The position numbers were made by a program, and so were the translations under genes. Under the pieces are notes generated by a model. That model saw only the letters and a program-made list of their open reading frames with translations. It did no database searches and was not told where the DNA came from. Source: Hysterangium stoloniferum (taxonomy: Eukaryota; Basidiomycota; Agaricomycetes; Hysterangiales; Hysterangiaceae). Taken from it: 64,000 nt of DNA. Positions 1-59,311 of this stretch are shown here, in pieces. Positions within the stretch are counted from its first letter, which is position 1; each line of letters starts with the position of its first letter. The stretch lies in the NCBI GenBank assembly GCA_015178975.1, contig WHVD01000172.1:1-64000 (forward strand), written 5' to 3'.

Positions 1-2
1 TG

Positions 3-3000
3 ACCCAGTTAGACTCAAGTTGCTCGGTGGTTCTAGGACATAACTGGCTTACCCGCTACAATCCGTTGATTGACTGGATAGCTAACAGTATAACTTTCCG
101 GACTCCGCGGCGACCGAGGAAACTGCGCCTGTCTCGGCCTCCACGGCACCCATGGCCTTCCCGGCACCTGCAGTCTCGAGGACTCCTGTGATCCCTACGG
201 CACCTACAGCTTCCCCGGAACCCACGGCACCTCCGTCCATTTCTCTGATTAATGCTGCAGCTTTTATTAGGGCTTCAAAAATGGATGGGTCCCAGGCGTT
301 CACTATCAACTTAAAAATTGATGAAGCAACTGGACGTTTCTCAACCCCAGTATCCGAATCTGAGCAAGCTGCTGACCTAGAAGGCGTCCCGGAGAAATAC
401 CATGACTTCGCGGATGTTTTTAGCAAGCGAAAAGCTGACCGGCTTCCGCCTCACAGAGAATACGACTTAAAAATCGATCTTGAAGATGGCGCCCAGCCAC
501 CCCTAGGACATATTTACCCGCTTTCGTCCACGGAACTATCCGCAATCCGTGATTTCCTGGATGAACATTTGTCCATAGGTTTTATTCGACCCTCAAAGTC
601 TCCTTTTGGAGCACCTGTTTTGTTTGTCAGAAAAAAGGATGGATCCCTTCGACTATGTGTGATTTTAGAGGACTCAATGCTGTCACCAAAAAGGACAAAT
701 ATCCACTCCCACTTATATCTGACCTGCTCGATGCTCCGCGGAATGCCCGGATTTACACCAAAATAGATCTCAAGCACGCCTATCATTTGGTCCAGATTGC
801 CGTGGGCGACGAATGGAAAACCACTTTTAGAACCCGCTATGGGGCCTTCGAATGGTTGGTCATCCCTTTTGGACTCACTAATGCCCCGTCTGTTTTTCAG
901 CGTTTTATCAACGACATTTTCTCCGACATGCTCGATGTATGCGTCATTGTTTACTTGGACGACATTCTTATCTACTCCGAGAATCCCGCGGAGCACGACA
1001 AACAAGTCCATGAGGTTCTCCGGAGGCTCAGACAACATGGTTTATTCGCAAATGGTAAAAAATGTACTTTTGACACGGACTCCGTGGAATACCTAGGTTT
1101 CATGATGGGACCCGATGGACTCCGCATGGATGAAACTAAAGTGCAAGTCATCAAAGATTGGCCCGAACCCCGAAAAGTTAAAGATATACAATCCTTCCTC
1201 GGCTTTGCCAATTTTTATAGACGTTTTATCCGTGTATATTCCGACATCACGGTACCCCTTACCCATCTTACGCGTAAGGGTACTCCGTGGAACTTTAACG
1301 ATAAGTGTCAAAAAGCTTTCAATCTTTTAAAAAATTCTTTTTCCACAGCTCCTATTCTGTCGCATTGGAAACCGGACTTCCCGCTCATTGTTGAAACGGA
1401 CGCCTCCGACTATGCACTTGGAGCCATTCTCTCTATCCAGGACTCCGACGGAGAAGTCCACCCCGTGGCTTTTCTGTCCCAGACTTTTACCGGAGCAGAG
1501 CTCAACTACAACATTCATGATAAAGAACTTCTGGCAATCTTTTCAGCTTTCAAAGCGTGGCGACACTATTTGGAAGGTTCAGGAGCTCCTATTGATGTTG
1601 TAACAGATCACAAAAACCTGGAATACTTTTCTACCACAAAACTCTTGACCCGTCGGCAGGCCCGCTGGTCTGAATATCTCTCCACCTTCAACATGATTAT
1701 CCGTTTTCGACCCGGCCGTCTCGGCGGCAAACCCGACGCTTTAACTAGACGATGGGACGTCTATCCTAAAGAGGGGAGCAACGACTATGCAACGGTAAAT
1801 CCGCACAACCTGAAACCTATTTTCACGAATCAACAACTTACCGCATCGGTCCGCACAACTTTCCTCGTCAATCCCATTGTCCGTGGAATTATCATTATGG
1901 ATATCGAGAAGTTACATCAAGATATTCTATCGGCAATTCCCCTAGACCCCATTACTAAAGCTCATCTAGACAATCCCGTGGACCCCGATCAACCTCGGTG
2001 GTCTCTTGATCAACATGGTTTCATTAGACTTGACGATAGGATCTATGTACCAGACTCCGACGGCCTCCGCCTCAGGATCCTTCAATACAAACATGATCAT
2101 CCACTCTCAGGACATTTCGGGTACAACAAAACTCTATCATTAATAAGAAGAGAATATACTTGGCCCGGACTCCGTGGATTCGTTAAGCACTATTGTAAAT
2201 CTTGCACTACTTGTCCCCGCTCGAAATCTCAGCGACACAAGCCATACGGCCTTTTGAAACAACTCCCAGTACCGGAACACCCGTGGAATTCTATATCTAT
2301 GGATTTCATTGAACACCTACCAGATTCTGAAGGCTTTTCTGCTATTCTAGTCGTTGTTGACAGATTCTCAAAACAAGGTATATTCATCCCTACTTATGAT
2401 ACAATTACGTCCGTGCAGTTAGCGGAACTTTTCATTATCCACATATTTTCCAAGCACGGAGTTCCATCCCACGTGACTTCCGATCGAGGATCAGAGTTCG
2501 TGTCTCACTTCTTTAGATCCCTCGGAAAATCCTTGGACATGACATTACATTTCACGTCCGGACATCACCCGGAAGGTGACAGACAAACCGAATGCGTCAA
2601 CCAGACATTGGAACAATACCTCCGCGTATATTGCAACTATCAACAGGACAATTGGAAAACCTTCTTACCACTTGCAGAGTTTGCTTACAACAATGCACCC
2701 TCGGCCACTACTGGCGTTTCCCCGTTCTTTGCAAATAAAGGATATAATTCAAACATTACAGTACATCCAGAACGAAATCTCACCTCTGTTCGTGCTCAAG
2801 AGTTCACCACGGACCTCCACGAGCTCCACGAGGAACTCCGGACTGCAATATTGTCCGCCCAAGAGCAATACCAACATTCAGCAGACAAACACCGGATCCC
2901 GCCACCAAACTTCAAGATTGGCGACCGTGTTTATGTCAAAGCTCAATTCTTCCGGACTACCCGTCCATCAAAGAAGCTTGCTGAAAAATATTTAGGTCCC

Positions 3001-3381
3001 TTTGAAATTATCGCACAAGTAGGTTCAGTTTCTTGGACTCTACGGCTTCCGGATAGCATGCACGCGGTACACCCGGTATTTCATGTCTCTATGCTAGAAC
3101 CTTGTACTGCTAACACTATCCCGGATCGCGTGCAATCTCCACCTCCCCCTGTCGTCATTGACGGAGAACCCGAGTTTGAAATCTCGCAGATTTTAGATTC
3201 AAAAATTGATAAGCGTCGACGCACTTGTAAACTGCTTTACTTGGTCAAGTGGGCGGGTTACGAGGGCACCGATGAAGAAACCTCATGGATTTTGGCCACA
3301 GAACTCGGTAATGCCACGGAAATCGTTACTGACTTTCATACAGCTTACCCACTCAAACCTGGACCATTATCGTCTCTCTGA
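3..3381 (+). pseudogene. gypsy pol (protease end, RT, RNase H, integrase, chromodomain), two frameshifts
   Basis: Pol polyprotein for reverse transcription and integration. The C-terminal end of the protease is read from base 3. Against copy 2, one base is missing near 107 and another near 658 (in the RT motif LCVDFRG). After the second shift the frame is open for about 900 codons. Visible there are the RT catalytic YLDD (952-963), the RNase H motif TDASDYALG, an HHCC integrase zinc finger (HDHP, then CKSC), the integrase core with MDFIEHL, SDRGSEF and a downstream Glu in DRQTE, and a C-terminal chromodomain (YLVKWAGY). The chromodomain places it among chromoviruses, whose integrases are directed to heterochromatin. 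Two single-base losses make this copy non-coding as assembled; a sequencing error at either is possible. Confidence 0.93.
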
Positions 3382-3588
3382 CTGCACTCTGCGGACCCCG
3401 TGTTACGTTTGGACTCATTTTCACTATTCCCTGTCGCCCTATGTCTCTCCTTGCTTTTACAGGTTCTGACATGTCTTGTCAAGTCTTTAAGCGGATTCCC
3501 CGCGGACTTTGGCTTTGACTTTTAATTTTTATGTTTTTCTTTCACGCTTTGCTTTTATGATTCAAATTATTTTATTCTATACTACTTT

Positions 3589-4572
3589 TCAGTCTACATT
3601 TATGGGACTGTTCTTTTTCCCTGCTTCCTCAGCTATCTCCTCTGGGAGCTCTGCGACCTCTGCGGCAACCCCGTCCTCATCCGATCCGGCATCCTCGGAA
3701 CTCCCGACTTGCGGCTCCTTATACACATAGCCGCCATACTCCGCCAGGAACTTCCAAAACTCCTCGCGGAGTCCGGACAGCTCCTTTGCCACCACAATTT
3801 GGACCTTGTTGCTCTTCCGGAGCAACTCATTTTGGGCCTCGATGCCCTCGGCGATCCGTCCAAGGACCTCATCCAACCCGGACAACCCGTCCGTCCCGCT
3901 TATGTCTCGCGTCCCGGACCCCGTGGCCTGCTCGTGCACAAGCGAGCACCTCGCCTTGAGGTGCGCGCATTGGTAACATCCCGGCCCCCGGCCGGCCTTT
4001 CGGTTGCATTCCGTGTTCCGGTCGTTGCAACTGGAACACCGTGGCTCGTTCTGCATCGGAAGACGGACTGGCACCGCCTTCCTTGCCTTCTGTTGATATG
4101 GTCAGTTTCCGCGGGTATTCCTTGGACATGAGGCCTACCTTTTGGGGGCTCTCTGGCTCCCCCTCGGACTCGGACTCCACCTCTGTCGCTTTGCGCTGAA
4201 AATCACAAGTCAGTAAAAGTCGACAAGTTGAATATTGGGACTTACCTTTCCCGCAACAATGGCGGCCCTCTCCGCGGCCAACCGGGCTTTCTCCGCAGCC
4301 ACCCGGGCGTTCTCCGCGGCCACTCGCGCAGCCTCCTCCGCCTCACGTTCCCTCTCCTTTGCGGCCTCTTCCTCCGCGGCCAATGCTTCCTGGTACTCTC
4401 TGTCCAGGGCCTCCTCAGCCTCCCTCGCCTCTCTCTCTGCTGCTTCACGAAGCTGGCGCTGCTCTTCTCGCCATGCCAACAATTGGGCTGCCGTCCACGG
4501 CGCCCGATACGGAGTGCCCGTGGAGGGCCCTGCTGTCGGCATTGGCTTGCGTGGTGTTGGTTTTGGTCCCAT
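3589..4572 (-). CDS. antisense spliced gene in gypsy copy 1: coiled coil plus Zn2Cys6-like cluster
   Basis: Three exons on the strand opposite pol: 4572-4246, 4195-4139 and 4089-3589, separated by introns of 50 and 49 nt. Intron 1 has GTAAGT, CTGAC and TTTTCAG; intron 2 has GTAGGC, CTGAC and AACAG. Joining keeps one frame and predicts 294 residues. Residues 1-30 are Pro-rich. About 45-109 form an Ala/Glu/Arg-rich coiled coil with repeats such as AARVAAENARVAAEKARL. An acidic linker follows. Then comes a cluster C-x2-C-x6-C-x9-C-x2-C-x6-C (CSSC to CYQC to ARC), which fits the Gal4-type Zn2Cys6 spacing, then a second helical stretch and an acidic tail ending in INVD. A TATA box lies about 50 bp upstream of the ATG. 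Exon structure and all six cysteines recur in copy 2. The position resembles the antisense ORFs of plant Tat-lineage gypsy elements. Its role is unknown; DNA binding or element regulation is inference. Confidence 0.8.
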
Positions 4573-4620
4573 AGTGATGAAGATGGGGGTAATAAAGAAG
4601 AAGAAATTTCTAATTTTCAA

Positions 4621-4631
4621 TTTTTTATATA
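4621..4631 (-). promoter_or_regulatory. TATA box of the antisense gene
   Basis: On the minus strand the sequence reads CCTATATAAAAAA, 49-59 bp upstream of the antisense ATG. The matching site in copy 2 (near 11145-11153) keeps the CCTATATAAAA core although its surroundings have diverged. This supports an internal promoter separate from the LTR. Confidence 0.6.
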
Positions 4632-4768
4632 GGCTCGTCGCGTTTGAACCTTACCTTCCAGATCACATGACTCTTTGACACATACGTGTAACCGACATGA
4701 CTTTTGACACATGCGCGTAGCCGACAAGAACCTTATTTAGGTCTAGAGCCTCTTTGGGACTTCGGCAT

Positions 4769-4778
4769 AAAGGGAGGA
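4769..4778 (+). other. polypurine tract of gypsy copy 1
   Basis: AAAGGGAGGA followed by TAC lies directly before the TGTTA start of the 3' LTR. Copy 2 has the equivalent AAAGGGAGGG at the same place (11290-11299). This is the expected plus-strand primer for reverse transcription. Confidence 0.8.
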
Positions 4779-4781
4779 TAC

Positions 4782-5600
4782 TGTTACAACCGGACAAATC
4801 CCGCCGGACTCCGGGCACTAACTCGTACGCCCCCACGCGCTACAAGCACCAATCGTCTGTTTATAGGTTTTCCCGCCCGGACTCCGTTACATCAAGACTC
4901 ATTACGTTCGACCTCATTAAGACACATATCAGTCACCGGACTTCCCCCGGACCCCGTCTCTGTCTATGTCCGTCTTCGTCCCACGCATCAGTCACCGGAA
5001 CCCGCTTAGAATCCCGTCACCGCTCTAATCAAGCCCCGTTCCCGTTTTAGTCAAATGACCTGTCACGATTTAGGACTCCGCTCCCGCTCCGTTTCCCGTT
5101 ATGGGTTATGCTTTGTCACGATTCAGACTCCGCTCCGTTCCGTCCCGTTCCTAACACCAATTTGGTGTTTACTATTCCTGTTTTATGTTTTGCTCGTTTC
5201 GTCTCATTATTACTGGATTCGGTATGTCATGCATTCCACGGTCTATATAAACTGGCAGATGTTGTACATACAATCCAGTCAGAAAATTAGCTTAGATTCC
5301 CCCCAGTAATCTAATACATTTTCCTCTCTAAACCCTACTCTTATCAGACCGCTCGCACTAGTCGGAGCCCGCGGGCTCCGGCGCATCTATCTCTCTCGAC
5401 TATCTCGATTCACGACTCACGACTCACAACCTACGACTCACAACCCACGAACCCCCTCCCGGACTCCCCGGGATTCCCGTCCGCCTGTCTGAAATTGGAC
5501 AATACGATCTAGCGAGGGCGCAGCCTATAAGCTGAAGCCAAGTCCTACCGGATATCCCGCAGGTTTCTCCGGAAACCCAGCCTGAGTGTGTATCCTAACA
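4782..5600 (+). repeat. 3' LTR of gypsy copy 1 (LTR family A, 819 bp)
   Basis: Begins TGTTACAACC and ends ATCCTAACA, with inverted TGTTA/TAACA ends. It contains a TATA box (tctatataa, 5242-5250), a perfect 18-bp palindrome (5363-5380), a block of short repeats related to cgactcac (about 5397-5450) and a conserved stretch gcagcctataagctgaagcc near 5520. Family A recurs at 11302, 41699, 50103, 51975, 52874 and 58193, mostly as solo LTRs with 5-bp duplications. Confidence 0.93.
5242..5250 (+). promoter_or_regulatory. LTR core promoter TATA box (family A)
   Basis: tctatataa is kept in the family A LTRs of the window, including CpG-depleted ones, as tctatatar. It is followed about 20 bp later by a conserved element around gttgtacatacaatc, a probable start-site region. 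The promoter role is inferred from position and conservation. Confidence 0.55.
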
Positions 5601-5601
5601 C

Positions 5602-6204: not shown

Positions 6205-9200
6205 GCAACCCTGTAGGCTCCATGCAGGTTGGGGATTGCATTGCCTCTCTGCGCATTCAAGAGTTTACCCGTCTCAATGCATCCACTCTTTCGCATTCTG
6301 ATTCATTTTTTATTAAACATATGTCTAATATGATTCCGAAATTCGTTTTTTCAGCTCTTATAGATTCCGCTCGACTCATTGTTTTTTAGATACAAAATTC
6401 ATGAAAAGAAATCTGTTGTTAGCTTATCCGATAAATCCCATCGGCCTCCGCCTCTTCGATGGCACAAGTAATTTGGTTGTCACCCAAGCTTGTGATTTAT
6501 CCATCTGTTTCCCATGTGGAACACCTCAGTTGGTCACTTTCTATGTGACCCAGTTAGACTCAAGTTGCTCGGTGGTCCTAGGACACAACTGGCTTACCTG
6601 CTACAATCCATTGAATGGCTGGATAGCTAACAGTATAACATTCCAGACTCCCATGGCAGCCGAGGAAACTGTACCTGTCACAGCCTCCATGGCACCCATG
6701 GCCTTCCCAGGACCTGCAGTCTCAAGGACTCCTGTGATCCCTACGGCACCCATGGCTTCCCCAGAACCCATGGCACCTCCGTCTATTTCTCTGATTAATG
6801 CTGCAGCTTTTATTAGGGCTACAAAAATGGATGGGTCACGGGTGTTCACTATCAACTTAAAAATTGATGAAGCAACTGGTCGTTTTTCAACCCCAGTATC
6901 CAAATCTGAGCAAGCTGCTGATTTAGAAGGCATCCCGGAGAAATATCATGACTTTGCCAATGTTTTAGCAAGTGAAAAGCTGACCAGCTTCTGCCCCACA
7001 GAGAATACAACTTGAAAATCAATCTCAAAGAAGGCACCCAGCCACCCCTAGGACATATTTACCCGCTCTTATCCATGGAACCTTCCGCAATCCACGATTT
7101 CCTGGATGAACATTTGCCAATAGGTTTTATCAGACCCTCTAAGTCTCCCTTTGGAGCACCTGTTCTGTTTGTCAAGAAAAAGGATGGATCCCTTAGACTA
7201 TGTGTTGATTTCAGAGGACTCAATGCTGTCACAAAAAAGAATAAGTATCCACTTCCACTTATATCTGATCTACTCGATGCTCCATTGAATGCCCAGATTT
7301 ACACCAAAATAGATCTCAAACATGCCTATCACTTGGTCTGGATCTCCATGGGCAACGAATGGAAAGCCACTTTTAGAACCTGTTATGGGGCCTTTAAGTG
7401 GTTGGTGATCCCCTTTGGACTCACCAATGCTCCATCTGTTTTTCAGCATTTTATCAACAACATTTTCTCTGCCATGCTCAATGTATGCATCATTGTTTAC
7501 TTGGATGACATTCTTATCTACTCTGAGAATCCCACAGAACATGACAAACAAGTCCGTGAAGTTCTCTGGAGACTCAGACAACATGGTTTATTCACAAATG
7601 GTAAAAAATGTACTTTTGACACAGACTCCATGGAATACCTGGGCTTCATAATGGGACCTGATGGACTCTGCATGGATGAAGCTAAAGTACAAGTCATCAA
7701 AGATTGGCCAGAATCCCGAAAAGTTAAAGATATACAACCCTTCCTTGGCTTTGCCAATTTTTACTGACAGTTTATCTGCAGATATTCTGACATCACAGTT
7801 CCCCTTACCCATCTTACGTGTCAGGATACTCTGTGGAATTTTAATGATAAGTGTCAAAAAGCTTTCAATCTTTTAAAAAATTCTTGTTCCTCAGCTCCAA
7901 TTCTGTCACATTGGAAACCGGACTTCCCACTCATTGTTGAAATGGATGCCTCAGACTATGCACTTGGAGCCATTCTGTCTATCCAGGACTCCAACAAAGA
8001 AGTCCACTCCATGGCTTTTCTGTCCTGGACTTTTACCAGAGCAGAGCTCAATTACAACATTCATGATAAGGAACTCCTGGCAATTTTTTCAGCTTTCAAA
8101 ATGTGGCAACACTATTTGGAAGGCTCGGGAACTCCGATTGATGTTGTAACAGATCACAAAAACCTGGAATACTTTTCTACTACAAAACTTTTGACCTGCT
8201 GGCAGGCCTGCAGGTCTGAATACCTATCAGCCTTCAATATGACTATCCACTTTCGACCTGGCTGTCTCGGCGGCAAACCCGATGCTTTAACTAGATGATG
8301 GGACATCTATCCTAAATAGGGGAGCAACAACTATGCCATGGTAAACCCGCACAACTTGAAACCCATTTTTACGAATCAGCAACTTACCGCATCAGTCCAC
8401 GCGACTTTCCTCATCAATCCCATTGTCCGTGGAATTATCATTATGGATATTGAGAAGCTACATCAAGATATCCTATCAGCAATTCCACTAGACCCAATAA
8501 CTAAAGCACACTTTGACAATCCCATGGACCCCAGTCAACCCCAGTGGTCTCTTGATCAGCATGGTTTCATTAGACTTGACAATCACATTTATGTACTGGA
8601 CTCCAATGGCCTCTGCCTCAGGATCCTTCAGTACAAACATGATCACCCACTCTCCAGACATTTCGGGTACAACAAAACTCTATCATTAATAAGAAGAGAA
8701 TACACTTGGCCCAGACTCCATGGCTTCATTAAGCACTATTGTAAATCTTGCACTACTTGTCCCTGCTCGAAATCTCAGCAACACAAGCCATATGGCCTTT
8801 TGAAACAACTCCCAGTACCAGAACACCCATGGAATTCTATCTCTATGGATTTCATTGAACACCTACCGGATTCTGAAGGCTTTTCCACCATTCTAGTCGA
8901 CATTGACAGATTCTCAAAACAAGGTATATTCATCCCTACATATGATACAATTACATCTGTGCAGTTAGCGGAACTTATCCATGTATTTTCCAAGCATGGA
9001 GTTCCATCCCATGTAACTTCTGACCGAGGATCAGAGTTCATGTCTCACTTCTTTAGATCCCTTGGGAAATCCTTGGACATGAAACTACATTTCACATCTG
9101 GACATCACCCAGAAGGCGACAGACAAACCAAAAATACGTCAATCAGACATTGGAACAATATCTCCGTGTATATTGCAATTATCAACAGGACAATTGGAAA

Positions 9201-9923
9201 TCCTTGTTACAACTTGCAGAATTTGCTTACAACAATGCACCCTCAGCCACTACTGGTGTTTCCCCATTCTTTGCAAATAAAGGATATAATCTAAATATTA
9301 TAGTACATCCAGAATGAAATCTCGCCTCCGCCCACACTCAAGAGCTCACTGTGGACCTCCCCGAGCTCCACGAGGAACTCCAGACTGCAATAAAGTCCGC
9401 CCAAGAGCAATACCAACATTCAGTGGACAAACACCAGATCCCGCCACCCAACTTCAAGATTGGTGATCGTGTTTTTGTCAAATCTCAATTCTTTCAGACT
9501 ACCTGTCCATCAAAAAAGCTTGCTGAAAAATATTTAGGTCCATTTGAAATTATCGCACAAGTAGGTTCAATCTCTTGGACCCTACAGCTTCCAGATAGCA
9601 TGCGTGTGGTACACCCAGTATTTCATGTTTCTATGTTAGAACCTTGTACTGCTAACACTATCCTGGATCATGTGCAATCTCCACCCCCTCTGGTCATTAT
9701 TGATGGAGAACCTGAGTTTGAAATCTCACAAATTTTAGATTGGAAAATTGATAAGCATTGACACACTTGTAAACTGCTTTACTTGGTCAAGTGGGCAGAT
9801 TACGAGGGCACCGGTGAAGAGACTTCATGGATTTTGGCCACAGAACTCGGTAATGCCAAGAAAATAGTTACTGACTTTCATACAGCTTACCTGCTCAAAC
9901 CCGGACCACTATCATCTCTCTGA
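6198..9923 (+). pseudogene. gypsy pol of copy 2, multiply disrupted
   Basis: Same domain order as copy 1, here with the whole protease. A one-base loss near 6368 breaks the retropepsin DSG motif; another near 6966 shifts frame before RT. Stops appear at 7767 (TGA), 8296-8298 (TGA where copy 1 has CGA), 8316-8318 (TAG) and 9759-9761 (TGA for CGA). An extra base near 9130 shifts the integrase frame. YLDD (7498-7509) and parts of RNase H, integrase and chromodomain are still readable. Several stops are exactly what CpG deamination would create from Arg codons. Confidence 0.92.
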
Positions 9924-10117
9924 CTGCACTTCATGGACCCTGTGTTACGTTTGGACTCATTCTCATTATTCCCTGTTGCCCTATGTCTCCCTTTGCTTTT
10001 ACAGGTTCTGACATGTCTTTTAAGTCCTTAAGTGGATTTTCTGCAGACTTGGATTCTTATGTTTTTTCATGCTTTACTTTTATTTTCAAAAAGAAATTAT
10101 TATCAAGTTTTATTATT

Positions 10118-11094
10118 TTATTTATCTACATTTATGGGGCTGTCTTTTTTGCCCACCTCAGCTTTCTCTGCCTCATTCATCTCCTCAGGGAGCTCCACTA
10201 TCTCCACGGGCACTGCATCCTCGTCCAAACTGGCATCCTCAGAACTCCCAATCTGCGGCTCCTCATAGACATAGCCACCAAACTCCACCAGGAATTTGAA
10301 ATATTCCGAGTGGAGCCCATGGAGTTTGTTTGCCACTACAATTTGAACCTTGTTGCTCTTCCGGAGCAACCTGTTTTGGGCCTCTATGCCCTCGGCAATC
10401 CATCCCAAAACCTCATCCAATCTGGAAATCCCATCTGACCCACTAATGTCCCATGCCATGGACCCTGTGGGCTGCTTGTGAACGAGCGAGCACCACACTT
10501 TGAGATGCACACACTGGTAGCAGCCTGGTCCCTGCCCAGACTTCCGATTGCATTCAGTGTTCTGGTCATTACAACCGGAACACCACGGGTCGTTCCATGT
10601 TGGTAGGCAGACTGGTGCCACCTTCCTTGCCTTCTGTTGATTTGGTTAGTTCCCTGGACCTCCCATGGACCTGAGACTTACTTTCTGGGGGCTCTCTGGC
10701 TCTCCCTCAGACTCAGACTCGACCTCTGTCACCTTGCACTGAAAATGCCAAGTCAGTCAAAACAACAAGTTGTATCTATGGGACTTACTTTGCCTGTGGC
10801 AACTGTGGCCCTCTCTGCAGCTGCCTGGGCTTTCTCTGTGGCAACCCACACAGCCTCCTCCTCATCCTTCTTCCTTTTCTCCTCAGCCACTTTCTCCCCA
10901 GCCAATGCCACCTGGTATTCTCTATCCAATGCCTCCTCGACCTCCCTGGCTTCCTTTTCCACCTCCTCTCACTGTCAACATTGTTCCTCCTGCTGTGCCA
11001 AAATTTGGGCAGTGGTGAGAGGTGCCCAGTATTAGTTGCCCGTGGAGGGCCCAGCAGTCAGCATTGGCCTTCACAGCGTTGGCTTTGGACCCAT
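10118..11094 (-). pseudogene. antisense coiled-coil/Zn2Cys6 gene of copy 2 (5' exon broken)
   Basis: Counterpart of the gene at 3589-4572. Both introns are recognisable, with GTAAGT donors, CTGAC/CTAAC branch points and TTTTCAG/AACAG acceptors (about 10791-10742 and 10683-10636). All six cysteines keep their spacing (CSGC, CYQC, VWC), and the frame from the second intron to the stop is open for about 167 codons. Exon 1 has an in-frame TGA at codon 8 and a TAA further on, so a full protein cannot be made. A downstream ATG could give a shorter product; this is speculative. Confidence 0.75.
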
Positions 11095-11301
11095 TTATGT
11101 CAAAGATGGGGGTAATAAAGAAGAAATTTCATTTTTTCAAAATTTTATATAGGCTCATCACATCTGAACCTTACCTTCCAGATCATGTGACTCTTTGACA
11201 CATATGTGTAACTGACATGACTTTTGACACATGCATGTAGCCGACAAGAACCTTATCAAGGTCTAGAGCCTCTTTGGGACTTTGGCATAAAGGGAGGGTA
11301 C

Positions 11302-12477
11302 TGTTATGACCAGAATTCCTGCCAGACTCCGGGCACTAACTTATACGCACCCATGCCCTATATGCACCAATTGTCAGTTTACCAGAATTCCCGCTGGACT
11401 CCATACATCAGACTTGTCCACGTTCAAGTTCGTTACATCGTGTATCAGTCACTGGAATACCTGCCAGACTCCGTCCCTGTCTATGTCTGATTGTAAGGGT
11501 ACACTGGTTACATTTCCAAGCCCTGCTTTCCTATGCTAGTACGAGCACCTAGTTAGTGCACATCCCCTATGTATCCATCACCTGGTTAGTTATTTAGAGT
11601 TCAATAGCTAAAGATATCCTCCAATTACAGGATGATCAATGGATCAGATCCATCGATCCATCTTTGTAACTCAGGCTCCAGCACTACAATAGTTTGTGGC
11701 TATTTCCATGTTCCCTAGATGCCTTAGAGGTGTATATAGGAGTAGCTAGCTCATGTATATTTGCTAGCTTGATATCTACTAGGTTTTCTGTCCTATACCT
11801 TAGTCCGAGTTACATATCTCGTCCCCTGACACCGACCTCATCCCATGCATCAGTCACCGGACCCCGCTCAAAAAACCCGTCATCCCTCTAACTGAGCCCC
11901 ATTCCCATTTTAGTCAATGACCTGTCACAATTTGGACTCTGCTCCCACTCCATTTCCCATTACGGTTTATGATTTGTCACAATTCAGACTCTGCTCCGTT
12001 CCATCCCATTCCTAACACCAAATTTGGTGTTTACTTATGTCATTTTATGTTTTGCTAGTTTTGTTTCATTATTACTGGATTTGGTATGTTATACATTCCA
12101 CAGTCTATATAGTCTGGCAGATGTTGTACATACAATCCAGTCAGAAAATCAGCTTAAATTCTCCCCAGTAATCTAGTACATTTTCTGCTCTAAACTCCTC
12201 TCTGAATTACACCACTCTTGCTAGTCAGAGCCCACAGGCTCTGACACATCTATCTCTTAACCTCCGACTTATCTCGACTACCCAACCTCTCAACCCATGA
12301 CCTCCGACCTACGACCCCTTGACCCACAAACTCCACCCGGACTCCCTGGGTTTCCCATCTGCCTGTTTGAAATTGGACAACACAATCTCATGAGGGTACA
12401 GCCTATAAGCTGAAGCCAAGTCCTACTGGATTTCCCACAGGTTTCTCCAGAAACCCACCATGTACGTACCCTTAACA
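11302..12477 (+). repeat. 3' LTR of gypsy copy 2 (family A, with insertion)
   Basis: Starts TGTTATGACC after the polypurine tract and ends CCTTAACA. It aligns with the 819-bp LTR at 4782 but is longer because of an inserted 340-bp piece (11492-11831). The TATA box, palindrome remnant and gcagcctataagctgaagcc block remain. Most CpG sites of the younger LTRs are TG or CA here. Confidence 0.88.
11492..11831 (+). mobile_element. 340-bp solo LTR nested in the copy 2 LTR
   Basis: The inserted segment starts TGTAAGGG and ends CCCTGACA, near-inverted ends of LTR type. The flanks ctgat and ccgac can be read as a 5-bp duplication decayed by C-to-T change. An internal gtatatagg resembles a TATA box. 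A copia-type origin is likely but unproved. Confidence 0.5.
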
Positions 12478-22247: not shown

Positions 22248-23485
22248 ATGTCCAACCGCAAAGGCTCCGTGTCGACCGACTCGACAATAACCATCGCTCC
22301 TTCCTCCGTCGCTCTACCACACCGCACAGAGGCTGAAACACAGGCCCAAGGACAGCGCCCGCCAGTCTGGTCCCTGGACTCCACCGCAGACCCTGCGATA
22401 TCCGCGCCGTTGCCAGCCAAATGCGACCGGCACGGGAGACCCAACGGAATTTGCTGCAAGGAGCTGAAGGGTGAGGATGAGCGACACTTGCTAGATCCGG
22501 ATGTCGTCCGTGATATGTAAGTCTTGTCATGATCATTTGCAGTGACAATGCGTGCTGCATCTCGGGATATGCGGTATGGCGATATGTGACTAACGAATGG
22601 ACACACCACAAGTGTTATTGGTCTTTCGGATGGGCTGACCGTCCCGTTTGCGTTGACCGCTGGTCTTTCGAGCCTGGGAGAATCAAGATTAGTCGTGGTG
22701 GGCGGTGTCGCCGAGCTAATTGCCGGTGCCATCTCTATGGGCATTGGTGGCTTCCGTACGTGTCACGTCTACCCTGCCCTTGACAGAGCCCCAATTCCCC
22801 ACTAACCATACAACTTCGCGTCGTCCCAGTCGCATCCCAGGCCGAGCGCGACCACTACCGCTACCTCCAAAAAGCGACGTCCGCTCGCGTCATCCGCTCC
22901 TGCGCCGGCGAAATGGAGCGCGAAGTCCACGCTGTCCTCGGGCCGGTGGGTGTTCCCGAACGGCTCAGCAGACAGGTGGCAGACAGCCTGCGCAAGGTCG
23001 AAGTCGACTCCGGAGGGTTAGGCGCCGTTTCTGGTCCCCCCAGCGAAGAGGAGGGAACCCTGCGGTGGAGCAAGGACGTCGGATTGACGGCTTTCCTTCT
23101 CAAGTTCGGTGAAGGTCTAGGTATGTGTGGGCCGTCCCGTGCCAGTGCCGTTGCTCATCATTTCTCAACCATAACAGACGAAGTACCCACTCGCCGCCTG
23201 TATATCTCCGCATTCACAATCGGCATGGGCTACCTCATCGGTGGAATCATCCCGCTGATGCCCTATTTCTTTACCTCGTACGCCAAAGTAGGTCTCCTGT
23301 GGTCGTGCATCGTGACAGGGATCGTATTGCTCGTCTTCGGCGCAGTCAAAGCCCACGTCACCGGCGCGCAAACGGGCACTCGCGGATACCTTTGGGGCGC
23401 AATCAGCATGTTATTCGTTGGCGGATCCGCGGCAGGCGCAGCATATGGAATCGTTGCTGCTATCGAAGGCCTGAATTCTCATTGA
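22248..23485 (+). CDS. CCC1/VIT-family vacuolar iron/manganese transporter
   Basis: Predicted to move Fe2+ (and Mn2+) into the vacuole for storage and detoxification. Four exons, 22248-22516, 22613-22755, 22830-23120 and 23178-23485, join in frame to 336 residues; introns are 96, 74 and 57 nt. After a hydrophilic N-terminus comes the family signature DIVIGLSDGLTVPFALTAG in the first membrane helix, then AELIAGAISMGIGGFLASQ. A cytosolic segment follows with the Glu-rich helical pattern of the metal-binding domain (QAERDHYRYL, GEMEREV). Three membrane segments close the protein (MGYLIGGIIPLMPYFF, LLWSCIVTGIVLLVFGAVKA, SMLFVGGSAAGAAYGIVAAI). Length and topology fit the family. Reading frames opposite this gene are shadows. 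Metal choice cannot be told from sequence alone. Confidence 0.93.
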
Positions 23486-40582: not shown

Positions 40583-41461
40583 TTAATGACACTCCTTAGA
40601 ATGCAAAGTCAGTAGTTGTGTGATATGTATCTGTCCTGTAATCTGTGGTGTTGTTGGCTCCAACAATATTGCAGGAGTCAGCAACATTCCGAATGCATTG
40701 GTGTAAGCCCTAGAGCTGGGGCAGTCAGTTCCATAATGACCTTGTCTGCCACAATTAAAACATTGAACATTGGGGGGACACTTAACTGCATAGCCTCAGG
40801 TAGCTGAGAGAGCTTGAGGTTCAATGTCATTACCAACAATAGATATTGTACAATGGCCAAGCTGGTGCAATTCTTCATTGAGTAGGCAATTGATGATGTA
40901 CTGAGTTGTTCAGGTGGGATGGAATCCAAGCTGACGACAAACTTGCCATAAGATTCATCAAGGCCATTGGTGAGTACCAGGATCATCTCTTCTTCTTCAT
41001 GGGTTTTGAGCCAACAAAAGATGGTGGTATCTATGTTAATTGATGGAGGGCTGGTTGCATGGCTGAGGCATTGTGAGGCATGTTTCACAGCAGCGATCCA
41101 TAGCTGCATGCTCTGTGAGTCATCCTTTTTCATGGTCAGGAAGTGGCAGTGAACAGCAAGACAAGATGTGAATCCATGGGTGATGTGTACTTGGCACAGA
41201 TTTTCCCAAGAGATGGTGGAATCATTTTCATGGAGGTGAGGGATTTGCTCTGGTTCAATACCAAAAGTGAGTTCTGACTGCATGAGTTGTTGTTTTTTGA
41301 TGAATGCAAAAACCAATTTTGAGGAAGGTGAGCTGGGCAGTTGAGTTTCCGAACCATTGATGATATCCCACATCCTTGCAAGTGAGAAGTGCTTTCATAT
41401 AAACACACCATGTACTATAGTTCTCCTCCCCTAGTTTTTGAAAGTGGTTCTCATTTCCCAT
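40583..41461 (-). pseudogene. copia-type gag (DUF4219/UBN2-like, zinc knuckle), frameshifted
   Basis: Starts MGNENHFQKLGEENYSTW, the usual copia gag N-terminus in which the element protein begins with a W-containing L.G.NY..W motif. A shift near 41365 moves the frame, and another near 40880 brings back CFNCGRQGHYGTDC, a CCHC knuckle, close to the stop at 40583. The central UBN2-like part (WIAAVKHASQ, LTNGLDESYGKFVVSL) is intact between the shifts. Confidence 0.8.
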
Positions 41462-46128: not shown

Positions 46129-47619
46129 TATAAGAATACGGTGCAGATGTATATTGAGACATGGTGGATGTGAGCAAAGAGTGTTAGTATTACTAAGCAG
46201 CTATACAGTAGTTACTTATCTATTTACAAAAGAATGCAAGATTACTAATTATATATATCATATTTCAACACAATCCCTTAATCAAAGCATTTGAACAAAG
46301 GCTCCCTAAGTGTGAATTATTGTATCTGTGCAGTATGCACCCATTGCACACTCCAAGGTATTGCCAATTTTGATGTTGTCATTACAATCAGCAACATTGG
46401 TGTTGGTGTTGGCGGAAGTTGTAGGGTTTGGACAGTCAACCTGGTAATGACCATGTCCCCCACAGTTGAAGCACAAAATGTTTGGTGTGTGCTTAATTGT
46501 ATGGTGGTGGGCAGCAGAAAAGGCTTGAGTTTCTGCATTGTTATTAACAATGGATAAATTACGAGGGCCAAGCTGGCACAATTCTTCATTGAGTAAGCGA
46601 TTGGTGACATATTCGAAGGTCAGTTGTTCAGGTGGAATGGAATCCAAGCTGACAATGAATTTGTCATATGATTCATCAAGGCCATTGGTGAGCACCAGAA
46701 TCATTTCTTCATCTTCATGGGTTTTGAGCCAACAATGGAAGGTGGTATCCGTGTGAATTGATGGAGGGCTGGTTGTATGGCTGAGGCGCTGTGAGGTATG
46801 TTTCACAGCAGCAATCCATAGCTGCATACTTTGTGAGTCATCTTTCTTCATGGTCAGAAAGTGGTGGCAAAGAGCAAGACAAGATGCAAATCCACAGGTG
46901 ATGTGCACTTGGTGCAGGTTTTTCCAAGAGATGATGGGATCATTTTCATGGAGATGAGGGATTTGCTCTGGTTCAATACCAAGAGTAAGTTCCAATTGCA
47001 CCAGTTGCTGTTTTTTAATGAATGTGTGGACCAATTTTGAGGAGGATGAGCCAAGTGGTCAAGTTTCTGAATCATCAATAAGATCCCAGACGTCCTCGTG
47101 GATGAGAAGTGCTTTCATATAAACACACCATGTACTATAATTTTCTTCCCCTAGTTTTTGAAAGTAATTCTCATTCCCCATTTTTGGATAAGTGTGCAAT
47201 GCCAATGTAGAGTAGTGAGAAAAATGAAGATAAGGTGTGCAGTGCCAATTTAGATGTACTGCCCTGGAATCCTTTCTGTGCATGTACTGTGACTTCTAAG
47301 TCCTTTTATATGGTCACCTTCAATATACTGCCCCGGAGTCCTTCCTGTGCAAGTATTGTGGCTTCCAAGCCCTTCTATATGGCTGCCTACAAAGAATACA
47401 ACAAGTAACTACTCAAAGGAATGAAAATGCATGGTGACAAATCTGAAAGATAAGTCTGTGGGGCCTATAACCTGTAAGAATACAGTGCAGATGTACAGTA
47501 TATTGAGACACAGTGGATGCGAGCAAAGAGCGTTAGTATTACTAAGCAGCTATACAGTAGTTACTTATCTATTGACAAAAGAATGCAAGATTACTAATTA
47601 TATATATCATATTTCAACA
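46129..47619 (-). mobile_element. gag-only copia-type element 2 (complete, 1491 bp)
   Basis: LTRs 47473-47619 (5') and 46129-46270 (3'), with flanks ccaac and ctaac as a duplication with one change. After the 5' LTR comes ggttataggccccacag (primer-binding site), a leader with a duplicated stretch of about 60 bp (tactgcccyggartcctt) and gag. Then come a purine tract (ttaagggattg) and the 3' LTR. Gag stops about 35 bp before the 3' LTR, so pol is absent. Confidence 0.82.
46306..47181 (-). pseudogene. copia-type gag of element 2, one early disruption
   Basis: Begins MGNENYFQKLGEENYSTW; a stop/frameshift occurs near 47055. From there an open frame of about 240 codons continues through the UBN2-like region (LWIAAVKHTSQRLSH, EEMILVLTNGLDESYDKF, YVTNRLLNEEL) to the knuckle CFNCGGHGHYQVDC and a short tail. 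More intact than element 1. Confidence 0.82.
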
Positions 47620-49671: not shown

Positions 49672-51397
49672 CTTTGGGCACTTGGTTTTCCTCGAGGGAG
49701 TGTATTAGAATATAGAGCTGTGTGAGCATATACAAGGTGCTACACTGGCCCCATTGTTCTTTTGATTTTTGGTATTGCCAAATACTATTGTTCTCATTGT
49801 GTATATACATAAGTAGTATAGTTTTTTTATAATTACACTATCCATTTCCCTCCATGAGACATTGAGGTCAAACAAAAATTATATTCATCTTTCCTTATGA
49901 TTCTTATGAACTTCGAGAACTGATTTCAACAGTTTTAATGCACTTCTCATTATCAGAGTGTGGTACAAAAATCATAACATTCAACCAATATTCCAACAGT
50001 TTTAATGCACTTCTCATTATCAGAATGTGGTACAAAAATCATAACATTGAATTAACTATCCTGATATTGCTGATAGACAAGTAGAATATATTTGATACCT
50101 AATGTTAGGATACACACACAGGGCGGGTTTCCGGAGAAACCCGCGGAATATCCGGTAGGACTTGGCTTCAGCTTATAGGCTGCGCCCTCGCTAGATCGTG
50201 TTGTCCAATTTCAGACAGGCAGACGGGAATCCCGGGGAGTCCGGGCGGGGGTTCGTGGGTCGTGAGTCGTAGGTCGTGAGTCGAGAGTCGTGAATCGAGA
50301 TAGTCGAGAGAGATAGGTGCGCTGGAGCCCGTGGGCTCCGACTAGTGCGAGCGGTCTGATAAGAGTAGGGTTTTAGAGAGGAAAATGTATTAGATTACTG
50401 GGGGGAATCTAAGCTAATTTTCTGACTGGATTGTATGTACAACATCTGCCAGTTTATATAGACCGTGGAATGCATGACATACCGAATCCAGTAATAATGA
50501 GACGAAACGAGCAAAACATAAAACGGGAATAGTAAACACCAAATTGGTGTTAGGAACGGGACGGAACGGAGCGGAGTCCGAATCGTGACAAAGCATAACC
50601 CATAACGGGAAACGGAGCGGGAGCAGAGTCCTAAATCGTGACAGGTCATTTGACTAAAATGGGAACGGGGCTCGATTAGAGCGGTGACGGGATTCTAAGC
50701 GGGTTCCGGTGACTGATGCGTGGGACGAAGACGGACATAGACAGAGACGGGGTCCGGGGGAAGTCCGGTGACTGATATGTGTCTTAATGAGGTCGAACGT
50801 AATGAGTCTTGACGTAACGGAGTCCGGGCGGGAAATCCTATAAACAGACGATTGGTGCTTGTAGCACGTGGGGGCGTACGAGTTAATGCCCGGAGTCCGG
50901 CGGGATTTGTCCGGTCATAACACCTAATTCTTTTGTTGATTTCCCAGTCAGGCTATGGTATGACATTACATGTATATAAGATCACAGATGGAAGCCATAT
51001 ATGGTGCATGGACAACACAAGGATGTGTTTATTAAAGATCAATTGTGGTCATTTGAAGGAGATATTGGAATAGTTAGTTAATTCAATGTTATGATTATTG
51101 TACCACACTCTGATAATGAGAAGTGCATTAAAACTGTTGAAATCAGTTCTTGAAGTTCATAATAATCATAAGCAAAGATGAATATAATTTCCATTTGACC
51201 TCAATGTCTCATAGGGGGGAAATGGATAGTGTAATTATAAAAAAACTATACTACTTATGTATATACACGATGAGAACAATAGTGTGTGGCAATACAGTGA
51301 AAATCAAAAGAACAATGGGGCCAGTGTAGCACCTTGTACATGCTCACACAGCTCTATATTCTAATGCACTCCCTCAAGGAAAACCAAGTGCCCAAAG
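49672..51397. mobile_element. two inverted copia-type LTRs (or foldback element)
   Basis: 49672-50050 is the reverse complement of 51075-51397. Each arm begins ctttgggcacttggttttcc, gagggagtg (purine tract) and then tattagaatatagagctgtg, as at the pol/3'-LTR junction of copia elements. The left arm has an internal tandem duplication of about 66 bp (49924-50047). Between the arms is about 200 bp of other DNA plus the solo LTR at 50103-50922. Confidence 0.55.
50103..50922 (-). mobile_element. family A solo LTR (820 bp, duplication CCTAA), CpG-rich
   Basis: Minus-oriented: TGTTATGACCGGAC to ATCCTAACA, flanked by cctaa on both sides (50098-50102, 50923-50927). Nearly the same sequence as the LTRs at 4782 and 58193, and like them rich in CpG within a CpG-poor setting, so recent. 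Confidence 0.93.
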
Positions 51398-58192: not shown

Positions 58193-59012
58193 TGTTACGA
58201 CCCGGACAAATCCCGCCGGACTCCGGGCACTAACTCGTACGCCCCCACGCGCTACAAGCACCAATCGTCTGTTTATAGGATTTCCCGCCCGGACTCCGTT
58301 ACGTCAAGACTCGTTACGTTCGACCTCATTAAGACACATATCAGTCACCGGACTTCCCCCGGACCCCGTCTCTGTCTATGTCCGTCTTCGTCCCACGCAT
58401 CAGTCACCGGACCCGCTTAGAATCCCGTCACCGCTCTAATCGAGCCCCGTTCCCAGTTTAGTCAAATGACCTGTCACGATTTAGGACTCCGCTCCCGCTC
58501 CGTTTCCCGTTATGGGTTATGCTTTGTCACGATTCGGACTCCGCTCCGTTCCGTCCCGTTCCTAACACCAATTTGGTGTTTACTATTCCCGTTTTATGTT
58601 TTGCTCGTTTCGTCTCATTATTACTGGATTCGGTATGTCATGCATTCCACGGTCTATATAAACTGGCAGATGTTGTACATACAATCCAGTCAGAAAATTA
58701 GCTTAGATTCCCCCCAGTAATCTAATACATTTTCCTCTCTAAAACCCTACTCTCATCAGACCGCTCGCACTAGTCGGAGCCCACGGGCTCCGGCGCATCT
58801 ATCTCTCTCGACTATCTCGACTCACGACTCTCGACTCACGACCTACGACTCACGACCCACGAACCCCCGCCCGGACTCCCCGGGATTCCCGTCCGCCTGT
58901 CTGAAATTGGACAACACGATCTAGCGAGGGCGCAGCCTATAAGCTGAAGCCAAGTCCTACTGGATATCCCGCGGGTTTCTCCGGAAACCCGGCCTGAGTG
59001 TGTATCCTAACA
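58193..59012 (+). mobile_element. family A solo LTR (820 bp, duplication CCTTA), CpG-rich
   Basis: TGTTACGACCCGG to ATCCTAACA with cctta at 58188-58192 and 59013-59017. Nearly identical to the LTR of gypsy copy 1. Confidence 0.93.
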
Positions 59013-59311
59013 CCTTATACCTCAGAAGATCAAATAGTAAAAATTACCAAAGTATTTGTCAACATGCTCTATCATGCATAGTTTGATATGAGATAATGTC
59101 ATTGTGTAATATCCATATATGGTAACAATATGAATAATTTCATATAGAAGGTTCATTGGCTACCTTTTGTTGCTGACAGGCTCTTGTATGAAAATCATGT
59201 ACTATGTTGATTGATTGCACTTGTTTATATATTTTCAGCATGTTATGTGATCATTTGTGCTAAAGTATAAGTCAATGGGCTCTCACAGCTAAGATTCTCC
59301 CAATTCCAACT

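Follow-up and report, generated by a model that had tools for sequence, protein, structure and literature searches.

A predicted spliced antisense gene with a zinc-cluster-like product in a chromodomain Gypsy retrotransposon of Hysterangium stoloniferum

Antisense genes of long terminal repeat (LTR) elements are long known and have no established function. We have analyzed one in the truffle-like basidiomycete H. stoloniferum (Hysterangiales), located on the minus strand of a Gypsy retrotransposon at the start of a stretch of 64,000 nucleotides (nt) of contig WHVD01000172.1, called here the window. The locus raises the question of what a gene that runs against the element carrying it may encode, and what it does there. 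Our analysis indicates that selection almost certainly acts on it as a coding gene. Whether its product binds DNA and so regulates the element that encodes it is, in our judgment, evenly balanced.

The antisense gene and its host element

The pol gene of the element, at 565-3381 on the plus strand, matched PF00078, PF17917, PF17921, PF00665, PF24626 and PF00385, all above their cut-offs. With a reverse transcriptase, an RNase H, an integrase and a C-terminal chromodomain in pol, the element is a chromodomain Gypsy (chromovirus). Its 5' part is missing because the window starts at a contig end, and the pol frame of this copy is broken by a frameshift, leaving two overlapping frames at 565-766. 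The antisense gene sits between pol and the 3' LTR, as the original prediction had placed it (Table 1). Translation and splicing of the minus strand returned the same three exons that had been predicted, with a coding sequence of 885 nt for 294 amino acids (aa) and the stop. Both introns are of the GT-AG type, as had been claimed, and the first has the claimed 50 nt; the second has 49. The putative product is ordered as a coiled coil, a basic/acidic linker, a six-cysteine cluster, a second helical stretch and an acidic tail. A coiled coil followed by such a cluster had been foreseen, and the cysteines (C146, C149, C156, C166, C169 and C176) have exactly the expected spacing, C-x2-C-x6-C-x9-C-x2-C-x6-C. 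Judged by eye, the ends of exon 2 give a bipartite basic stretch (KRK...KKARK) that resembles a nuclear localization signal. Splicing is predicted from the sequence; among the automatic gene models of H. stoloniferum, P0003 has both junctions, P0002 the first and P0004 the second, although being gene models they do not prove it.

Table 1. Coordinates of the antisense gene and of the parts of its host element in the window.
Feature	Position	Strand	Details
gag-pol part of the element	1..3381	plus	reverse transcriptase, RNase H, integrase, chromodomain; 5' end beyond the contig
Antisense gene	3589-4572	minus	three exons, by translation and splicing of the minus strand
Exon 3	3589..4089	minus	six-cysteine cluster, second likely helical stretch, acidic tail, stop
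Intron 2	4090..4138	minus	49 nt, GTAGGC...AAACTGACCATATCAACAG, branch-like ACTGAC
Exon 2	4139..4195	minus	19 aa, acidic Ser/Glu linker
Intron 1	4196..4245	minus	50 nt, GTAAGT...TTTACTGACTTGTGATTTTCAG, branch-like ACTGAC
Exon 1	4246..4572	minus	start codon, Ala/Glu-rich coiled coil, aa 1-109, by translation; homologous exon 1 in L067-L070, diverged one in family X
Upstream region	4573..4778	minus	TATA-like CCTATATAAAA about 60 nt before ATG; duplicated unit GTCGGNTACNCGNATGTGTCAAA
3' LTR	4779..5601	plus	823 nt; TATA TATATAAA at 5244
Antisense gene of the second element copy	10118..11100	minus	same gene; the copy spans about 6541-12460 and has decayed at CpG

Copies, selection and a second family

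Copies were searched for in the 111-Mb, 554-contig assembly of H. stoloniferum, in which the window is contig C82. In each search the best 40 candidates were scored: from 744 with the young gene as query (96-100% identity), from 803 with the decayed copy and from 293 with a second family, called here family X. The young set consists of 29 loci besides the window (L002-L030) and the older set of 30 loci and the window copy (31 rows). A full 294-aa product without an earlier stop was found in 22 of the 29 young loci, and GT and AG were intact at both introns in all 29, so that with the window each of the four sites is kept in 30/30 rows. The older rows keep GT and AG of intron 1 in 29/31 each, and those of intron 2 in 31/31 and 30/31. 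Seven of the 29 young loci (L003, L006, L008, L014, L018, L019 and L021) combine the 294-aa product with an open pol of at least 1276 aa, among the 150 matches listed of 2638 candidates. L017, L019 and L020 are mutually identical across the last 1100 nt compared, which indicates that the family has been recently active with the antisense gene present. Counted against the window copy, distinct indel events numbered 3 over the 885 nt of the exons, including one at the stop codon, 5 over the 99 nt of the introns, and 6 and 15 over the 208 nt upstream and the 189 nt downstream.

Decay of old copies from CpG to TpG looks strong in this genome. The observed/expected CpG ratio is 1.03 in the first copy of the window and 0.32 in the copy at about 6541-12460, and lies between 0.23 and 0.43 in the older copies L032, L036 and L053. 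Since this decay dominates the copies, every column in which at least one sequence has a CpG was dropped. In the 30 young rows the remaining diversity at codon positions 1, 2 and 3 was 0.0054, 0.0068 and 0.0205. For the two introns it was 0.091 and 0.057, and for the upstream and downstream regions 0.0084 and 0.045. In the older set, shared non-CpG variants fell on 110/195 third positions vs 69/428 first and second positions (Fisher p = 1e-23, with sites not wholly independent given the common history of the copies) and on 31/68 intron sites. Singletons in the same set had no excess at third positions (36/195 vs 111/428), and this contrast between shared and singleton changes rejects the chance opening of a GC-rich frame. 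The young rows gave a weaker signal at third positions, with shared variants and singletons not separated (p = 0.034 and p = 0.010), and their shared variants were also more frequent in introns than at positions 1 and 2 (12/71 vs 10/473, p = 2e-6). Coding on the sense strand was rejected as the source of the codon pattern of exon 3, the exon to which the check applied: the only sense frame of matching phase, worked out by hand arithmetic from the ends of the open reading frames (ORFs), has stops at 3728-3730 and 3974-3976.

The ratio of nonsynonymous to synonymous change (dN/dS) across copies, which the original prediction had singled out as a check on the gene, was not near 1. With CpG codons excluded, the window copy gave 0.16, 0.14, 0.14 and 0.14 against L067, L068, L069 and L070, and the pol part 0.10, 0.08, 0.05 and 0.06 in the same order. 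The highest antisense value among the pairs compared was 0.21, and including CpG codons the range against L067-L070 was 0.15-0.26. Closer pairs have too few non-CpG changes for such a judgment; for the window and L002 the ratio is undefined (0 synonymous and 1 other change) and becomes 0.58 with CpG codons. Purifying selection thus acts on the codons of the gene and not on its introns, and natural selection appears to have kept the gene intact while the element was active, which suggests a regulator encoded by the element itself. These results also bear on the idea that the antisense transcript acts as RNA, pairing with genomic sense RNA to feed or damp silencing, with the protein being secondary. 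The gene does lie within the stretch that a full-length sense RNA would cover, so the two RNAs would be complementary, and the possibility has been raised in a review of plant elements (PMC7264820), but the codon positions, the dN/dS and the freedom of the introns show selection on the encoded protein, for which a role as RNA alone gives no explanation, and we consider this reading improbable. The introns themselves would persist because reverse transcription copies the sense RNA, where these sequences do not act as introns.

Retention was uneven along the protein. Over non-CpG codons of the 30 older copies, residues were best retained in the cluster (0.96; 0.93-1.00 for the six cysteines), and then in the linker (0.92), the second helical stretch (0.89), the tail (0.86) and the N-terminus (0.83). 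The first coil had a value of 0.70, and the segment between the cluster and the second stretch 0.59. In the young copies every part was retained at 0.97 or more. The comparison of the window with L068 gave, without CpG codons, a synonymous divergence of 0.55 in the antisense gene and only 0.10 in the adjoining pol, and this large difference suggests that the 3' module may have been swapped between subfamilies. Beside the L068 copy there is a long run of short tandem repeats (2958-3781) that is open in several frames.

A diverged homologue of the antisense gene was found in L063 and L073-L076, the loci of family X. In L073-L076 it stands after pol and before the polypurine tract and the LTR, and L063 is a chimera. 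Intron 1 has 50 nt in 5/5 loci; as in the window family, it comes after GK, and intron 2 after SPK. L076 has all six cysteines, with the x9 of the window family becoming x10, and an intact spliced product; stops are present in L063 and L073-L075. The two proteins share 28% identity over 210 aa by BLASTP (E = 0.011, a single comparison) and 36% in a MAFFT alignment, so the homology rests mainly on the position, the intron sites and the cysteines. The pol proteins of both families are 78% identical over 921 aa, and the antisense protein therefore evolves much faster than pol.

This second family is relevant to the possibility that a host gene was captured by the element and is now neutral cargo. 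Introns on the antisense strand fit the capture of a genomic host gene, and the loci L061 and L062 carry other open frames after pol, in sense; against it, no host paralogue appeared among the predicted proteins, and selection on shared changes, together with the homologue in family X, whose pol has 78% identity, already contradicts the neutral part. We regard this origin and fate as most improbable. The sense frames mentioned (L061 1019-1609 and L062 464-943) belong to two other chromodomain families and share the stretch KEYRRxLHxxGxRxPYAPDDPVxI; tblastn of the antisense protein found no likeness to them.

The region upstream of the gene was also compared. CCTATATAAA is present about 60 nt 5' of the ATG in 29/30 young rows, TATATAA is present in 22/31 rows of the older set, and ACATATAAAA is found at a comparable place in 4/5 loci of family X (not in L063). 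A unit of about 30 nt (GTCGGNTACNCGNATGTGTCAAA...TCAT) occurs twice upstream of the antisense gene, and a related version once in family X. Local alignment of the upstream regions of both families scored 61, vs a maximum of 35 in 2000 shuffles, although the alignment alone is no proof of a promoter because it includes the polypurine tract, an element of the sense strand. Shared variants of the young rows showed less diversity upstream than downstream (p = 0.002), a contrast that did not reach significance among the older rows (p = 0.24). Taken from these sequence patterns, the antisense gene probably has its own TATA-type promoter.

The product and its candidate targets

The published Zn2Cys6 consensus allows x5-9 between the third and fourth cysteines. 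A wider gap of x5-12 is also in use. The pattern C-x2-C-x6-C-x(5-12)-C-x2-C-x6-8-C is matched by the window family with x9, and family X with x10 needs the wider gap. By this spacing the product is Zn2Cys6-like, and we do not assign it as a member of the family. Its layout resembles that of a small fungal zinc-cluster transcription factor, and it is probably a DNA-binding protein. Cysteine spacing, coiled coil and CGG-triplet targets are features that it would share with the Gal4/Pdr1-class factors, and it differs from these in a central cluster that stays below the Pfam cut-off. Zn2Cys6 clusters are usually N-terminal. PF00172 was matched by 2/3 antisense proteins, with a best E of 1.8. For the three of them PF04195 (TRP28) was not listed in Pfam at E up to 10, and no bZIP family was listed in the Pfam search, also at E up to 10. 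No named relative emerged from Pfam, the PDB or three protein searches, one of which scored the 7997 candidates with most shared words; a match to P0005, a bacterial peptidase (E 0.095), was taken as due to chance, and in a scan of viral contigs 0 of 330 pattern matches were confirmed.

Dimers of zinc-cluster proteins can recognize dyads of CGG triplets, and such dyads are abundant in the element. Compared with the mean of dinucleotide shuffles (in brackets), positions 1-5601 of the window contain 19 inverted CGG pairs with a spacer of 3 nt (N3) (1.6), 18 with N5 (1.5), 8 with N7 (1.9) and 9 with N14 (1.5), 9 everted pairs with N0 (1.3), and direct pairs with N4 (20; 3.3), N6 (21; 3.0) and N8 (16; 3.7). 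Family X has 8 with N3 (1.1), 6 with N14 (1.0) and 10 direct pairs with N4 (2.0), and in L062 and L064-L066 a z of 3.5 was reached at no spacing. As a second null we used the other spacers of each sequence. By this background the 19 N3 and 18 N5 sites of the window element compare with 2.74 (p 1e-10 and 9e-10), its gag-pol part has 8 and 10 vs 1.10, and the LTR has 6 N3 sites vs 0.39. The N3 excess is also seen in L011, L026 and L070. One copy of family X has 8 N3 sites vs 1.39 (p 1e-4), and L074 is enriched for N2 and N3. No enriched spacing was found in five loci without the gene (L061, L062, L064, L065 and L066, representing perhaps three families), nor in the 51.5-kb rest of the window with its LTRs masked. 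Among the sequences compared against this background, dyad enrichment is confined to the two families that carry the gene.

Two simple origins of the dyads were considered. Against a single repeated word, their inner bases vary and the nine N5 sites at 565-3381 fall 3, 4 and 2 per frame (hand arithmetic), but the 8-mer GGACTCCG does occur 9 times, counting both strands together. Against inheritance from the ancestor of both families, in the aligned pol 0/6 window N3 dyads match an N3 dyad of family X and 0/3 do so in the reverse direction (one is opposite a gap), the N3 dyads standing at different positions of pol, and 1/9 window N5 dyads is shared. An 8-mer specific to family X is in no excess over shuffles. 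The motif TCCRYGGA, similar to a pleiotropic drug response element (PDRE), was found 6 times in the window element, whereas 200 shuffles averaged 0.46 and reached at most 4; TCCGCGGA and TCCGTGGA are given as Pdr1/Pdr3 sites in PMC5539612.

The enrichment gives a new reason to test a regulatory role. In the mechanism that we consider most likely, the product would enter the nucleus as a dimer and bind CGG/CCG dyads both in the U3 region of the LTR and in other parts of the element, and this binding could tune the transcription or the silencing of its own family. We propose, tentatively and with more doubt than confidence, that the antisense zinc-cluster protein recognizes its own element through CGG-N3-CCG (in the window family also N5) dyads, which the element would have gathered in its LTR, coding and antisense sequence, driving or unsilencing its own family, with protein and dyads co-evolving in each family; that the dyads are its targets is itself possible but doubtful. 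The LTR dyads of this type at 4805, 4878, 4948, 4996, 5363 and 5372 are kept in 29, 28, 25, 14, 2 and 31 of 36 rows, and the first four precede the TATA of the LTR, as would be expected of upstream activating sites.

Several observations weigh against a self-encoded DNA-binding regulator. The Zn2Cys6 likeness claimed by the original prediction held for the spacing and not for membership of PF00172, for which the window protein scores 8.3 bits, over a partial stretch, vs a cut-off of 21. None of the 11 PDB sequences that matched with E up to 10 is a zinc-cluster chain, and the weak matches over the cluster were to XIAP RING chains with E no better than 2. The sole AlphaFold model, of the exon 3 product from a single sequence, is uninformative on the two-helix Zn2Cys6 fold; its mean predicted local distance difference test score (pLDDT) is 48, and helices appear only in this low-confidence model. 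Protein searches gave no relative outside H. stoloniferum, one of them having scored only the 7997 candidates that shared most words. The dyad test is post hoc, made once the excess had been noticed. By dinucleotide shuffles the unmasked rest of the window passes z 3.5 at many spacings, so this null is not strict enough for DNA of mixed origin; two LTRs of the window family account for 10 of the 14 N3 sites in that part. The 1397-nt antisense/spacer part of the window element fails p < 1e-3 (5 and 5 vs 1.16), L073, one of three pieces of family X, has no enriched spacing, and no dyad is found in the 206-nt region of the antisense promoter. Moreover, LTR dyads are kept no better than other CGG/CCG triplets (0.84 vs 0.88), and those at 4996 and 5363 are rare among copies.

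The last of these points would also suit a nuclear accessory factor for retrotransposition or chromatin targeting, with the dyads being host zinc-cluster sites or an unrelated bias. Such a factor would be under selection, as pol is, and a role of this kind has been proposed for the conserved plant antisense ORFs, which have no established function. However, the six-cysteine cluster is the best-kept part of the protein, and the dyads are of the type bound by zinc-cluster dimers and are enriched in the two carrier families and not in the five loci without the gene. We find an accessory factor rather unlikely.

The rest of the window holds two further LTRs, at 50103-50922 (minus) and 58193-59013 (plus), with 96.8% and 97.2% identity to the LTR of the element. 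They are probably solo LTRs, since no match to the internal part was found in the remaining window. An open frame at 22784-23485 (plus, 233 aa) has several hydrophobic segments and presumably encodes a CCC1/VIT-type transporter. Two related open frames at 40678-41394 and 46306-47058 (minus), the second with a CCHC-like stretch, are what we take to be Copia gag proteins.

Known systems and significance

The original prediction had held that a spliced antisense gene with a zinc cluster is not a standard part of chromoviruses. That antisense genes as such are foreign to fungal chromodomain Gypsy elements was not borne out, as Boty, a fungal element of this class, has an extra gene, brtn, which runs antisense in the interval from pol to the 3' LTR (brtn is mentioned in PMC8365987, PMC4227169 and PMC5987419). 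The hosts of Boty are Ascomycota, and the likeness is positional, taken from the descriptions of brtn and not from its sequence. For plant elements, conserved antisense ORFs in the same interval, with functions unknown, are described in a review that also mentions Boty of Botrytis and Sclerotinia (PMC7264820). We have compared gene23 of Grande, which has a promoter upstream of the gene, RIRE2, TRP28 of Retand (PMC11963269) and PvRetro13. Where known in these sources, the plant products have TRP28 or SMC-type domains, unlike the Hysterangium proteins, for which TRP28 was not listed, and introns are not mentioned in the main text of PMC7264820 or PMC11963269. A literature search, with most subscription papers outside it, recognized no comparable antisense gene that is spliced, of the zinc-cluster type or from a basidiomycete. 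Fungal Gypsy elements were already known to carry antisense genes, and what appears to be new is a spliced one with a zinc-cluster-like product.

Outside retrotransposons, HBZ of human T-cell leukemia virus type 1 (HTLV-1), like the APH proteins, is similar in position, being encoded by an antisense gene from the 3' end and described as a nuclear factor that acts on the LTR (PMC3185765). HBZ is a bZIP protein and its transcript starts in the 3' LTR, whereas the Hysterangium product has a six-cysteine cluster and its gene a TATA-like box between the ATG and the LTR. VANDAL21 of Arabidopsis is a DNA transposon, an element of another kind. It encodes VANC21, a DNA-binding protein whose short target motif is concentrated in VANDAL21 itself and seldom occurs in other transposable elements (PMC5735166). 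Binding and loss of methylation were demonstrated by experiment for VANC21, whereas the Hysterangium case is predicted from sequence, and the VANC motifs are mainly non-coding whereas the dyads described here are also found in coding DNA.

In this gene the domain layout, a likely promoter, the introns and the selection can all be read, and a candidate DNA target is present within the element, which makes the question of its function directly testable. It also suggests a route by which a retroelement may retain introns, those of an antisense gene being invisible in the RNA that is copied. If the proposed recognition is true, it would be a self-recognition system of a retroelement comparable with that of VANC and VANDAL.
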